This document shows, piece after piece, positions 33,815-39,638 of a DNA stretch of 64,000 nt. The notes beneath the pieces are model-generated. The model made no database searches and was not told the origin of the DNA. It saw nothing but the letters and a program-made list of their open reading frames with translations. The stretch is from Acidobacteriota bacterium. GTDB taxonomy: Bacteria; Acidobacteriota; Terriglobia; Bryobacterales; Bryobacteraceae. The stretch covers positions 1 to 64,000 of the forward strand of contig JACQZR010000261.1 in NCBI GenBank assembly GCA_016213775.1. Reading direction: 5' to 3'. The translations under genes and the position numbers were made by a program. Each line of letters opens with the position of its first letter. Position 1 is the stretch's first letter.

Positions 33815-34213
33815 TCAGCGGCGGAATGGCGATTCCTGGAACGCCGTCAAGCGAGTGTACCGGCTGATGATCTCGAAGTCGCGGTCCCGGTGCCACACCG
33901 CCGTCTGTGTCTCAATCGCGATCGCAGCGATCAGGCAATCCTTCGCCGACCGGATGGTGAATCCGCGCCGCCGTCCTTCCCGGTAGATCTCCGCGGCCTG
34001 CAAATACAGCCCCAGAGGCACCGGGTCGCATAGGTGCTTCATCGCCAGAAACGACTCCCGGACCTCGTCCGACCGCCGGTCCTGGCGCAGCCCCTGCAGT
34101 ACTTCCTGCGTCACCGGTGGACACGTCACCGCCACGATCAGTTCCTCCGGCCCAACCCCGCGAATGCCGCCATTAATGAGCTCGATCCACACCGAACTGT
34201 CGATGAGCAACAT
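33815..34213 (-). CDS. vapC: VapC-type PIN-domain toxin
   Basis: This 132-residue ribonuclease toxin has the PIN acidic residues: Asp5 in LLIDSSVWIEL, the Glu of VTQEVLQGL, Asp in SAKDCLIAAIAIE and Asp in HRDRDFEII. It would cleave RNA (often tRNA) unless bound by its antitoxin. The start at 34213 lies 1 bp after the antitoxin stop codon, so the two are co-translated. Upstream in-frame sequence belongs to the antitoxin in another frame and is not part of the protein. Confidence 0.93.
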   Translation of the reverse strand: MLLIDSSVWIELINGGIRGVGPEELIVAVTCPPVTQEVLQGLRQDRRSDEVRESFLAMKHLCDPVPLGLYLQAAEIYREGRRRGFTIRSAKDCLIAAIAIETQTAVWHRDRDFEIISRYTRLTAFQESPFRR

Positions 34214-34214
34214 A

Positions 34215-34460
34215 CTAGCGGGATGTCGATTTCTTGCGGGATAGCGGCGCCGGTGACGGAGGCGGATCGTCGCCCCGCATCTCCGCCAAATTGCCTTCCC
34301 ACAACCCCGACCCAAAATGCTTCGCCAATGCCTGCACCTTGCGCATCCGCGTCACTTCCTCCAACGCCTGGTTGATCGCGCCGGAGTAGGTCTTTTGACC
34401 CAAGACCCTGGTGGCTTCGTCCAACAAATCTCCATCTAACACAACATTCGTACGTTTCAT
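34215..34460 (-). CDS. vapB: VapB-type antitoxin
   Basis: This 81-residue antitoxin has a ribbon-helix-helix-like N terminus (KRTNVVLDGDLLDEATRVLG) for DNA binding and autoregulation, a second helix SGAINQALEEV, and a C-terminal basic tail that should wrap the PIN toxin. The start at 34460 fits the family; an in-frame GTG 30 bp upstream is less likely. CATACT lies 6 nt before the start, a weak match to the leaderless-type promoters of the window. Confidence 0.9.
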   Translation of the reverse strand: MKRTNVVLDGDLLDEATRVLGQKTYSGAINQALEEVTRMRKVQALAKHFGSGLWEGNLAEMRGDDPPPSPAPLSRKKSTSR

Positions 34461-34516
34461 GTGTATAGTATGCAGCGTGTGCCGCCCCAATGCAAGCGCT
34501 TTGTCGCCCTATCCCC

Positions 34517-34984: not shown

Positions 34985-36685
34985 TCAGCGTACCACTTGG
35001 AGTTTTGTTGGAGGGCTCGTGTTGCCAGAAACGGTCAACGTCAAATCATATTCCCCTTCAGCGATATCGTCCGGCAATTGGATTCGCGCCTCCCACACCC
35101 CTGGCAACTCCGCCACAGCCGCCAATGCGACCTTCGCGCCGATGTTGCTTGACCACGGCGGTGTGCCGCGTCCCACCCCTGTGAGGTAGACATTTACGGT
35201 ATCGCCCGCCCTCGCCGGCCCTTCGGCAAAGAAGATAGCGGGCGCAGATTCCGTCACCCAAATCAAACGCTCGGGCGAAGTGAGTCCGTTGCTGGTGATG
35301 CTGATTCGTGCCGATCCCGTATTCGTCGGCTCGGGCAACACGGCGTTGATTCGTCCTTCTTCGGCCGTCAGAATCGCCGCCTCTCGCCCATTGATGCTAA
35401 CCTTCGCATTCTCCGTAAGCCCTGTCCCGAACACAGAAAACGCAGCCCCTCGTCCCAACGGCCTTTCGTCAAAGGTTGCCGAATTCAGCACACCGTGAAA
35501 ATCGATGCATGGCGGCTCCGGTCCTTCCGCGCCCGATTGCGCCACTTCGATCTTTTGATTGTCGAGCGTCACAAACCCCAGTCGCGCAGCGCCTGGATTG
35601 CTCCGCGGATGCAGCGCCACGTGGTAAGCGCCCAGTTCCACATCGATCCAGTCGCTTTTTCCGTTGATCTTCGAACTGCAACCTTCCGGCAGAGTGTATT
35701 CGACAACCACGGACGCGCCAACACCGGCCGCGCAGAAGTAAGGCCGCGAGACCTCTAGCGGACAATCGCCTTCCGTCAGCGCCCTCGCTTCACGACGCAG
35801 CGCCGGCAGCAGCGTGTACACCCCATTGCCTGGACACTCCGTAGTGCTGGTAGCACGCGCAGACAGCCCGGCGTCACGATGTCCGCTGATCACGTTCAGT
35901 GTCAACCCGCTTGCCGCGTGCACGGCTCTCCCGCCAGGATCGAGCTTCCACCGGAGCGCCTGCGCTACCAGCAGATCCCGCAAAGTCTCCATCGAGGCCG
36001 TTTGCGGCGCAAGAGCCGAGAACGTGCCGAGCATACACACGCCCATCGTTCCGCCGTTCACTCCGGAAAAGTGGGCCCCAAGCACTCCATCGCCGCCGGC
36101 GCGGCCCTCATAGAGCACGCCATTCGGATCAATCAGGTAGTTGTATCCGATGTCGTTCCAACCGTTCCCTCGCACATGAAGAACCCAGATCGACCGCACC
36201 ACTCCCGGCCAGTCCTGCGAAGTGTTTCCGCCGGCGCTGTGGTGCACCACCAGATGGGTCACTGTCGTGTAGGATGGCGCTGATGGCGAGGGGCACGTTT
36301 GGGGCGTACATCCCCACTCCTCTCGCGTCACAACTGGCGGCATCTCCGCCCTGCGCGCTCGCTGTTTAGGACTTACGGCGACAGTCGTGGTTACTCCCGC
36401 ATCAATCAAACCAACCCGGCAGTCACGATCCGTTTCCAGATACCGCTGCAGCTCGCCGAAGTAAACCAGTGCTCCATCGTGCTCGTGAGGAACGGTAATC
36501 CACTCGCTCCATGTGTTCCCATCCGTGGAAGCCCGCGCACGCGCATCCTGCTCGCAATAAAGACCGGCCGCGCGAAACGGCATAGGAGTCCGCGCCGCAT
36601 ACCCACCTATAGCTTGCCATTCGCGGTAGGTGGATTCACCGCTAACCACCCCGGCGATGAGCAATACTAGAGCAACGAGCCGCAT
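34985..36685 (-). CDS. PGRP-type N-acetylmuramoyl-L-alanine amidase with TIGR03437 tail
   Basis: This 566-residue exported protein has a signal peptide (MRLVALVLLIAGVVSGE), an N-terminal beta domain, and a peptidoglycan-recognition/amidase_2 domain at about 117-300. Zinc ligands are H148 (VVHHSAGG), H269 (ISGHRDAG) and C284 (TECPGNG), and the DIGYNYLIDPNGVLYEGR core is intact, so it should cleave peptide stems from peptidoglycan. Residues 310-400 resemble a BACON-like beta domain, and the C terminus is a TIGR03437 module. It lies 9 bp downstream of the subtilase gene. Confidence 0.92.
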   Translation of the reverse strand: MRLVALVLLIAGVVSGESTYREWQAIGGYAARTPMPFRAAGLYCEQDARARASTDGNTWSEWITVPHEHDGALVYFGELQRYLETDRDCRVGLIDAGVTTTVAVSPKQRARRAEMPPVVTREEWGCTPQTCPSPSAPSYTTVTHLVVHHSAGGNTSQDWPGVVRSIWVLHVRGNGWNDIGYNYLIDPNGVLYEGRAGGDGVLGAHFSGVNGGTMGVCMLGTFSALAPQTASMETLRDLLVAQALRWKLDPGGRAVHAASGLTLNVISGHRDAGLSARATSTTECPGNGVYTLLPALRREARALTEGDCPLEVSRPYFCAAGVGASVVVEYTLPEGCSSKINGKSDWIDVELGAYHVALHPRSNPGAARLGFVTLDNQKIEVAQSGAEGPEPPCIDFHGVLNSATFDERPLGRGAAFSVFGTGLTENAKVSINGREAAILTAEEGRINAVLPEPTNTGSARISITSNGLTSPERLIWVTESAPAIFFAEGPARAGDTVNVYLTGVGRGTPPWSSNIGAKVALAAVAELPGVWEARIQLPDDIAEGEYDLTLTVSGNTSPPTKLQVVR

Positions 36686-36694
36686 CCTTCCATC

Positions 36695-38110
36695 CTAACC
36701 TCTGGCGTCGATCAGGAGCACCGAGTTGTAGCCTCCGTGCTGATCCGGAATCCGCCGGGGATTGGCCGGATCTTCCATCCAGCGGTGATCCACGAGGAAT
36801 TTGTAGATATAACGTCCCGGCCGCAAATGAGGCGCGAAGGCTCTCCACAAGCCCGGCCGCAGTTGCCGCGCCACGATCCCACTCACCCAACCGTTCCAGC
36901 TCCCAAAGACCTCCACCAGCGTCGCCGAATTGTGCCGCAACAGGAACATCGTCCCCTGCGGCGTCAGACAGGGCGATGGCGAGAAGCCTTCCATTACTCC
37001 GCCCTTGGCGCGTAAGGCCTGTGACACAGCCTGCCCCGAGTCAATTGCGCCCAGACCCTGTTGTTCCGCTGGCGCTCCCGATATCCTGCTGCACGCCTGA
37101 GCCAGGCACTGCCGCACCAACTGCGGCGTCAGCGACGGATTCGCCTCCAACATGCACGCCACCGTCGAGGATACGATCGGAGCGGCGAAGCTTGTCCCTT
37201 CCACCATCTTGTAGTGCGGTGTGATCAGCTTCTTCTCCTGAATCAGCGACTCTATTTCGGGTTTGCGTGCCGCCCGGCGCTCGAACAGTTCCTTCGCCTC
37301 GGCGTGATCAGCGGTACCCGGCAGGATCGGGCCCACCACCGAAATCGATGGCGCCACAAGTTCCGGCTTTAAAGACCCGATGATCGACTCGCCGTAGTTG
37401 GAATGCCAGACCAGTCTCCGCGAGCGGTCCAGCGTGTTTTGCTCATCCAACCCCCCCACGGTAATCGCGTCCGGACACGTGGCGGGAGGAAGCAGCCGCC
37501 GCACGCCGTCATTGCCGGAAGCGGCAACCACCACCGCCCCGCGATGTACCAGCTCTGTCACTGCGCGGTCAATCGGATTCTTGGGCGAACCCGGTTCGTC
37601 ACCAGCCACTGAAAGGTTCACCACCCGCACCCGCAGCCGCGCGGCATGCACTGCCAGCCATCGCTGTGCCCTCAAAATCGCGCCGTCCCGTATCCGTCCG
37701 GTCGGCTCCGCTACCTGGATGAGCACCACTCCAGCCTCGCTCGCCAATCCGCGGTACAAACCCTGGCTGCTTTTTCCGTTTCCAGCCGCAACCACACTGG
37801 TCATCGTCCCGTGCCACTGCGTGGGATGGCCTTCCTCCCAACCGGGCCAACGCGGCTGCTCGGACGCCGAAAAGAACCGTGCCTGGACCGGTTCCCCGGT
37901 TGCATCCACCCACGCCCGGATACGGTTCACCGGCTCCGTCAAATCCCGATGCGGATAGAAGCCCGAGTCCACCATGGCGATGGTCACATCGCGCCCCAAG
38001 TGATACGGATCCGCATGCATCCGCAATGGCGTTGGTAACGCATCCATCGCGGAAACATCCGGGCTGGGCCCGAGTTGACGTAAGGCGTCTGGCAAGGCGT
38101 GAAAAACCAA
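36695..38110 (-). CDS. Subtilisin-family (S8) protease with glycogen-binding-like C-terminal domain
   Basis: This protease of about 471 residues has the catalytic triad Asp48 (AMVDSGFYPH), His100 (HGTMTSVVAAG) and Ser307 (EGTSFAAPIV), with the oxyanion Asn200. Residues about 390-470 (TLVEVFGSWNGW, then RPGRYIYKFLVDHRWMEDP) read as an AMPK-type/CBM48 glycan-binding domain. No signal peptide is visible. The start is uncertain: the open frame begins at TTG 38110 and the first in-frame ATG is at 38047. It is probably co-transcribed with the amidase gene. Confidence 0.88.
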   Translation of the reverse strand: MVFHALPDALRQLGPSPDVSAMDALPTPLRMHADPYHLGRDVTIAMVDSGFYPHRDLTEPVNRIRAWVDATGEPVQARFFSASEQPRWPGWEEGHPTQWHGTMTSVVAAGNGKSSQGLYRGLASEAGVVLIQVAEPTGRIRDGAILRAQRWLAVHAARLRVRVVNLSVAGDEPGSPKNPIDRAVTELVHRGAVVVAASGNDGVRRLLPPATCPDAITVGGLDEQNTLDRSRRLVWHSNYGESIIGSLKPELVAPSISVVGPILPGTADHAEAKELFERRAARKPEIESLIQEKKLITPHYKMVEGTSFAAPIVSSTVACMLEANPSLTPQLVRQCLAQACSRISGAPAEQQGLGAIDSGQAVSQALRAKGGVMEGFSPSPCLTPQGTMFLLRHNSATLVEVFGSWNGWVSGIVARQLRPGLWRAFAPHLRPGRYIYKFLVDHRWMEDPANPRRIPDQHGGYNSVLLIDARG

Positions 38111-38178
38111 ACGCCGCGCAGGAGACTGGGCTGACCAGCTCCAACGCGGCGTGCTGAATTCTCAGAAGCGGGAGAAGA

Positions 38179-38319
38179 CTAGCGAACTTCCTTCTTCTTT
38201 TCCTTCTTCTTTTTCTTTTCCTTCTTCTCTTCCTTCTTCTCGTTGGTGGCGCCGAACGTGGCAGCGGCAGTGCCGACGAGCAGTGTGAGGCCGAGCATGA
38301 TGCTCATGAGTTTCTTCAT
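38179..38319 (-). CDS. Tiny exported peptide with Lys/Glu-rich tail
   Basis: This 46-codon gene encodes MKKLMSIMLGLTLLVGTAAA, a clear signal peptide, then a mature tail of about 22 residues made almost wholly of Lys and Glu. AGGAG lies 13 nt upstream of ATG 38319, supporting translation. The tail would be a short charged, probably disordered peptide outside the cytoplasm. I have seen similar short signal-peptide plus Lys-rich genes in acidobacteria, but know of no function. It lies upstream of the subtilase gene on the same strand. Confidence 0.75.
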   Translation of the reverse strand: MKKLMSIMLGLTLLVGTAAATFGATNEKKEEKKEKKKKKEKKKEVR

Positions 38320-38576: not shown

Positions 38577-39638
38577 ATGCGACCCCTCACCCAGACCCCT
38601 CGCAATCGAAAAGCCGCCGCCGAGCCGGCTGACCTGCTTGCCACTCTTTCTGAAAGAATCATTGGACAGCAATCCTCCCTTCAATCGATCGTTCCTTATG
38701 TGCAGATGTACGAGGCCGGCCTCGCACCGGAAGGCCGTCCCGTCGGCATCTTCCTGCTGCTCGGCCCCACCGGCACGGGAAAAACGAAAACTGTCGAAGC
38801 GCTCGCTGAAGCCATCCATGGCAGTGAGCGGAACCTGCTCCGTATCGATTGCGGTGAGTTCCAGCTCGATCATGAAGTGGCGAAGCTGATCGGCGCGCCT
38901 CCCGGATACCTGGGCCACCGCGAGACAACCCCGCTGTTGACGCAGCAGAAGTTGAATGCGGTCACCAGCGAGCGTTCGAACTTGTCCATCGTTCTCTTTG
39001 ACGAAATCGAAAAAGCGGCTCCCTCGCTCAACCGGCTGCTCCTCGGCGTGCTCGACAAAGCCACCCTGCGGCTGGGCGACAACACCACCGTCAATTTCGA
39101 GCGCAGCCTGGTTTTCCTGACGTCGAACCTTGGAGCTCGCGGCATGTCCAGAGAGCTGCGCCCGGAATTCGGCTTCGATTCGCTGGTGGACCACGGGCCG
39201 CGCAAGAATATGAAACGGAAACTCGAAAGTATCGCACTCACGGCAGTGAAGAAGCGGTTCTCTCCCGAGTTTGTCAACCGCATTGATGTCATCAACACCT
39301 ATCAGCCGTTGGACGCCGGCGCGCTCAACCGCATCCTCGACCACTTGCTGGAGGAGTTCCGCCGGCACGTGTTGCTACGCATGGGGCCGCGAGCCTTCAA
39401 CATCGAGTTGTCAAAAGGCGCCCGTGAGTTTCTCATGAAACGAGGAACCAGCTCCGAGTACGGTGCCCGCGAGCTGAAACGGACTGTCCATCGCAATCTG
39501 ATTCAGCCGATCGCCGCGATGGTGGCCAAGGGCCAGGTGGGGCCGGGAGCCGTAATCTGCGTGCGGGGACGCGAATCCTCCGATTCGTTGGCGATGGAGT
39601 GTCTGTCGCTGATGGATGAGGACGAGCTCGCTGCCTAA
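38577..39638 (+). CDS. Single-ring AAA+ ATPase resembling the ClpB/ClpA D2 domain
   Basis: This 353-residue ATPase corresponds to only the second ring of Clp/Hsp100 unfoldases. It has Walker A GPTGTGKT (63-70), a pore loop GAPPGYLGH (107-115), Walker B SIVLFDEIEK (137-146), arginine finger in FSPEFVNRID (Arg235), and a C-terminal small domain with sensor-2 SSEYGARELKR. There is no N-terminal domain, D1 ring or coiled-coil middle domain, and no IGF/L loop that I can identify for ClpP docking. It may act as a stand-alone remodeller. Its stop codon interlocks with that of the convergent lytic transglycosylase gene. Confidence 0.88.
   Translation: MRPLTQTPRNRKAAAEPADLLATLSERIIGQQSSLQSIVPYVQMYEAGLAPEGRPVGIFLLLGPTGTGKTKTVEALAEAIHGSERNLLRIDCGEFQLDHEVAKLIGAPPGYLGHRETTPLLTQQKLNAVTSERSNLSIVLFDEIEKAAPSLNRLLLGVLDKATLRLGDNTTVNFERSLVFLTSNLGARGMSRELRPEFGFDSLVDHGPRKNMKRKLESIALTAVKKRFSPEFVNRIDVINTYQPLDAGALNRILDHLLEEFRRHVLLRMGPRAFNIELSKGAREFLMKRGTSSEYGARELKRTVHRNLIQPIAAMVAKGQVGPGAVICVRGRESSDSLAMECLSLMDEDELAA

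Follow-up and report, generated by a model that had tools for sequence, protein, structure and literature searches.

A putative glycogen-tethered subtilase: a predicted intracellular S8 protease with an AMPK-type carbohydrate-binding module in Acidobacteriota and other phyla

The window analysed here, a stretch of 64,000 nucleotides from an Acidobacteriota bacterium of the Bryobacteraceae (assembly GCA_016213775.1, contig JACQZR010000261.1, positions 1 to 64,000), encodes on its minus strand a subtilisin-like serine protease (subtilase) with a C-terminal module resembling the glycogen-binding domain of the beta subunit of AMPK, an energy sensor of animals (36695..38110). From its sequence, we read this protein as a serine protease of the cytoplasm whose C-terminal module anchors it to glycogen or to another alpha-1,4/1,6-glucan, and we put the probability of this reading at roughly 60%. 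It is based on the fold class, the catalytic residues, the glucan-contact residues, the absence of an export signal and the presence of glucan-enzyme genes near the protease across phyla. Carbohydrate-binding modules (CBMs) normally steer carbohydrate-acting enzymes, or kinases and phosphatases.

Catalytic domain and glucan-binding-type module

The open reading frame (ORF) of the subtilase codes for 471 aa from a TTG at 38110. This TTG falls within the U-tail that follows a terminator-like hairpin, so translation more probably starts at residue 22, the ATG at 38047, which would give a protein of 450 aa. The Peptidase S8 domain (37052..37996, minus strand, residues 39-353) matched PF00082 with 5.9e-32 and 111.6 bits (cut-off 21.8) and contains the complete triad D48/H100/S307 plus the oxyanion residue N200. 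In the aligned family members D48 was kept in 123/124, H100 in 124/124, N200 in 124/124 and S307 in 123/124. The structure of the subtilase was predicted with a mean pLDDT of 91.6 and its top structural match in the PDB was the subtilisin-like protease 9ues (VIA Z 38.9, root-mean-square deviation 2.4 over 295 residues); the results of the whole-model fold searches were taken up by the S8 domain and bear on this domain, not on the CBM. Judged from the conservation of the triad and the oxyanion Asn and from the predicted fold, the protease looks active. Signal peptides were assessed by eye, without a predictor, and neither the subtilase of the window nor any of five close members that were read had a hydrophobic N-terminus; from this absence of an export signal the subtilase is predicted to be intracellular. 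Assignment as a mycosin of the type VII secretion system was rejected because TIGR03921 gave 92.9 where its equivalog cut-off is 278.75. Assignment as the anti-phage subtilase IetS/IteS was rejected as well (NF042956, 10.7 versus 900; PADLOC IetS, 20.7 bits, residues 237-338 only), and a defence role sought in PADLOC and NCBIfam profiles yielded just weak, partial subtilase/IetS matches.

The module (36704..36928, minus strand, residues 395-468) occupies the last ~75 residues and matched AMPK1_CBM (PF16561) with 5.6e-8 and 33.3 bits, over the Pfam cut-off of 26.8; CBM_48 (PF02922) reached 14.3 bits and stayed under its cut-off of 22.4. The original prediction, made from the DNA alone, of a serine protease fused to a CBM48-like module and devoid of a visible signal peptide thus holds, and at the sequence level the C terminus did not turn out to be an unrelated Ig-like fold. 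When the 37 members of alignment A2, which had been selected as CBM-bearing, were scanned singly, PF16561 was found in 36 and CBM_48 in 33 of them (E<=0.01). Among PDB sequences the module matched a pullulanase (5ot1, 3.3e-5), AMPK beta-2 (2f15, 5.2e-4) and AMPK beta-1 (1z0n, 1.2e-3), and weakly the glucan phosphatases SEX4/DSP4. AMPK is inhibited by glycogen via its glycogen-binding domain, and mutation of W100, K126, W133, L146 and T148 strongly lowered glycogen binding, according to PMC2642990; W100, K126, W133 and N150 are described as critical in carbohydrate interaction in PMC4032982. The counterparts of the latter four residues are, by alignment, W408, K437, W444 and N462, and they were kept in 60/60, 58/60, 59/60 and 57/60 CBM-bearing members, respectively. 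With these contact residues in place, the module looks functional.

The protease family and its gene neighbourhoods

A scan of genome contigs with a single sequence returned no relatives, but a scan with the five-member alignment A1 found them; 96 relatives were confirmed in this way and 80 loci were kept. By the titles of their records, members came from KSB1, Acidobacteriota, Planctomycetota, Chloroflexota, Chlorobi, Bacteroidota, Gemmatimonadetes, Sericytochromatia, Calditrichia and myxobacteria, and among 396 sampled Acidobacteriota genomes 55 had a family member at E<=1e-50. Cultured species with a member include Flavobacterium muglaense (L075) and Neolewinella persica (L069). By its sequences the family is present in at least nine phylum-level groups, and its typical form is a Cys4 (zinc-like) domain followed by S8 and an AMPK-type CBM. 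The first of these, an N-terminal C-x2-C ... W ... G-x-C-x2-C domain, precedes S8 and CBM in the ORFs of many members; its four Cys and the Trp were invariant in 20/20 aligned members, chosen for having the domain, and no Pfam family was named for it among the 37 members scanned. The members of the window's genus have neither the Cys4 domain nor a glucan-gene context, and keep the glucan-contact residues. In a FastTree of 124 S8 domains (125 members, one of less than 300 aa left out; midpoint root, many low internal supports) Cys4 domain and CBM were both scattered over the tree, and acidobacterial and Chloroflexota subclades had no CBM; these sequences suggest an ancestral Cys4-S8-CBM form with later losses. 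The table of architectures excludes duplicate or superseded loci (L051, L080, L056, L120-L124, L131, L135) as well as L001-L031 and L036-L039, and near-identical pairs (e.g. L047/L049, L065/L067, L164/L165) were left unmerged, so that counts are of loci and not of independent events. By eye, a separate 107-aa CBM48-like frame was seen directly upstream of one family member (L045:7608-7931), with a 6-phosphogluconolactonase-like frame following, and ClpS-like adaptor frames were seen 2.5-3 kb downstream of two others (L068:4382-4660, L070:6176-6487).

Neighbouring genes were counted within 8 kb of the protease at those loci whose flanks totalled 5 kb or more, which left 57 CBM-bearing and 32 CBM-less loci. 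Recurrent neighbours by Pfam were glycogen debranching enzyme (GDE; GDE_N+GDE_C), a GH63/MGH1-like glucosidase, a GMC oxidoreductase, a glyoxalase-like protein (VOC), SMP-30 and a MIP channel, and at least one of these six was found near 29/57 CBM-bearing loci. GH63 was near the protease at 12/57 CBM-bearing versus 1/32 CBM-less loci, GMC at 19/57 versus 1/32, VOC at 17/57 versus 1/32, MIP at 20/57 versus 1/32 and SMP30 at 12/57 versus 0/32, a comparison that is confounded by ancestry. The link was also seen in 21 protease-bearing Acidobacteriota genomes, a non-random set with 20 Acidobacteriota stretches picked as mostly CBM-bearing. GH63 was present in all 21 (29 copies, as two of the 30 rows were halves of a single gene split between contigs) and GDE in 18/21. 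In 9/21 genomes, with 0.21 expected, and in 5/16 genera GH63 and the protease were no more than 20 kb apart (p ~4e-7, simple binomial); GDE was as close in 2/21 (0.14 expected). A cluster of MIP channel, GMC oxidoreductase, glyoxalase-like protein and GH63/MGH1-like glucosidase, sometimes with GDE, was observed at L161-L166, L062, L069, L075, L077, L151 and L152 and recurs in Acidobacteriota and Bacteroidota. Literature searches, with limited reach into subscription journals, found neither an S8 protease with a CBM48/AMPK1_CBM module nor a description of such a gene cluster.

The CBM-less members, mostly of Chloroflexota, had other neighbours, namely an esterase (21/32) and ATP-grasp enzymes (16/32). 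Most of the CBM-less Chloroflexota loci L084-L118 (e.g. L093:4276-9827) show a conserved row around the protease, consisting of a putative esterase, an upstream ATP-grasp enzyme, a second conserved gene and a downstream circularly permuted ATP-grasp enzyme, which is possibly a peptide-modifying set.

Proposed role, known systems and alternatives

In the proposed mechanism the CBM module would hold the protease on the glycogen particle, where the protease would trim or remove glycogen-held proteins, either renewing the enzymes of the particle or releasing them when the glycogen state changes. Glucan binding would place or gate the protease, by analogy with the AMPK module and its kinase, and the Cys4 domain, which members of the window's genus do not have, may keep the enzyme in check or help it to dock. 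Glycogen binding, proteolytic activity, the substrate and the direction of regulation are what we infer here. A wider version is more tentative: many phyla may possess a dedicated glycogen-particle protease, bound through an AMPK-type module, gated by Cys4 and accompanied by a GH63/GMC/glyoxalase/aquaporin-type cluster, which would remodel stored glucan together with its bound proteins and couple proteolysis to the glycogen state. A protease whose glycogen-contact site is intact, shared by distant phyla and linked to glucan enzymes, would suggest that bacteria control their glycogen stores by proteolysis. The reading also gives a candidate function to proteins that routine annotation would probably label "S8 family peptidase".

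Parts of this arrangement are known from other systems. The Thermococcus subtilisin-like protease Tk-SP (3afg, 9ues), which gave the best sequence and structure matches, has the same S8 fold, but no AMPK-type CBM is named for its structures; Thermococcus subtilisin-like proteases bear a propeptide and are secreted. In SEX4/DSP4 a catalytic domain is steered to alpha-glucan by CBM48; these enzymes dephosphorylate the glucan itself, whereas the enzyme of the window is a protease. Intracellular subtilisins (ISPs) carry a short N-terminal inhibitory extension or motif. Those of the Bacillus type are likewise subtilisins without an export signal, as described in PMC6220982, but the family studied here adds the CBM and, in many clades, the Cys4 domain. 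From AMPK beta, whose PF16561 domain the module matches and whose W100/K126/W133/N150 counterparts it keeps, the protein differs in that the module is joined to a protease and not to a kinase scaffold.

Several observations speak against tethering to glycogen. Beside the confounding by ancestry mentioned above, AMPK L146 and T148 are unmatched, with His and Gly at their places; 64/124 aligned members, some of them truncated, were not scored as CBM-bearing; and all six neighbour genes are missing from 28/57 CBM-bearing loci, among them the three loci from the window's genus. GDE taken alone was not enriched, being near 7/57 CBM-bearing and 2/32 CBM-less loci (p=0.48), both of the latter (L053, L152) falling in a CBM-bearing clade, and the GDE and GH63 of the window's own genome sit on other contigs.

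The module could be an inert structural Ig/E-set domain like that of CBM48-like esterases, where it is N-terminal, on a subtilisin of general intracellular turnover. In favour of this, the three further AMPK1_CBM-like matches of the same genome are all esterase-type ORFs and, by eye, have neither the contact Lys nor the second Trp; about half of the CBM-bearing loci are without glucan neighbours and related clades manage without a CBM. The conservation of W408, K437, W444 and N462 (57-60 of 60 members, from many phyla), however, is more than a structural need would ask for, and together with the linkage to GH63 this makes an inert module unlikely. Lower still is the probability that the protease gets out of the cell, on lysis or through some unrecognised route, and that the module grips exogenous starch or glycogen. 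The resemblance of the module to pullulanase and AMPK modules alike would fit this, as would some neighbours of relatives that look, by eye, like envelope proteins, but no signal was seen in the five close members and the Cys4 domain of many clades would suit a cytoplasmic protein.

The adjoining amidase and tiny peptide genes

The next gene downstream of the subtilase, after a gap of 9 bp, encodes an N-acetylmuramoyl-L-alanine amidase of 566 aa (34985..36685, minus strand) with a Sec-type start, an Amidase_2 domain (E 2e-13, 51.2 bits; Pfam cut-off 26) and a TIGR03437 (Solibacter) tail (67.9 bits, cut-off 29.05). At E<=1e-100 the protease was found in 5/200 genomes of the order (own included; next best 8e-28), namely in the window, G083 (66%), G042 (66%), G099 (53%) and G143 (52%), and amidase relatives at E<=1e-30 were found in 24/200. 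The amidase directly follows the protease in the window, G083 and G042, the three protease-carrying genomes found in the genus. In G099 and G143 the amidase relative is on a different contig from the protease, and G118, of the window's genus, has the amidase with no protease match in its flanks. Among the CBM-bearing loci the amidase stood beside the protease in 3/57, every one in the window's genus. The pairing is local, at the level of the genus; the two proteins are predicted to reside in separate compartments and do not have to cooperate.

On the other side, 68 bp before the subtilase, a tiny gene (38179..38319, minus strand) encodes a peptide of 46 aa with, by eye, a Sec-type start, and with a Lys/Glu-rich end. 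The intervening hairpin (38107..38157, minus strand) has a folding energy of -32.9 kcal/mol, versus -17.6 for shuffled sequences (standard deviation 2.5, z -6.1), and is followed by a U-rich tail; a simple pattern scan for terminators, whose loop and stem rules exclude a bulged hairpin, gave no site between the tiny gene and the subtilase. Relatives of the peptide were found in 15/61 genomes searched (own included), also where no protease ortholog was detected (G129, G124, G044), and its own genome held no paralog beyond itself at E<=1. In G042 protease and amidase adjoin near 616 kb of contig C22 and the peptide gene is located at 976 kb, ~360 kb apart; in G083 it is found upstream of the protease, but the two are separated by a response-regulator-like frame (by eye) on the reverse strand. 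Because of the strong hairpin and of the distance in G042, the tiny gene was judged to be separate from the protease and is probably a transcription unit of its own.

That protease, amidase and peptide jointly degrade the walls of self, prey or rivals is very improbable: the adjacency of protease and amidase in all three protease-carrying genomes of the genus, and the Sec-type start and motifs of the amidase that we take to be zinc ligands, would favour it, but the protease has no export signal, the peptide gene is cut off by the hairpin, remote in G042 and present in protease-free relatives, amidase relatives are far more widespread than the protease, and, of the loci examined, none from outside the genus had an amidase adjoining the protease. 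The original prediction had joined the three genes, an exported amidase with a TIGR03437 tail and a small exported charged peptide flanking the protease, into one set. Both flanking genes were confirmed at their places by ORF coordinates and, for the amidase, by profiles; as a conserved gene order, the protease-amidase pair survives in three genomes and the place of the tiny gene is not kept. A role of the set in wall degradation, predation or defence was not borne out, the peptide being unlinked, the compartments different, the amidase adjacent to the protease at three of the 57 CBM-bearing loci, all of the window's genus, and the defence matches weak and partial. Action of the protease on or at cytoplasmic glycogen, which had been offered as the alternative, is better supported because of the kept contact residues, the glucan-enzyme neighbours in other phyla and the lack of an export signal.

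Upstream of the protease, the window encodes a divergent single-ring AAA+ protein of the ClpB-D2 type (38577-39638; AAA_2 and ClpB_D2-small by Pfam). Since this gene is not beside the protease in L032-L035, a protease-unfoldase pair is not claimed. At 33815-34490 a PIN-domain-like frame overlaps a small antitoxin-like frame, by eye a probable VapBC-type pair.

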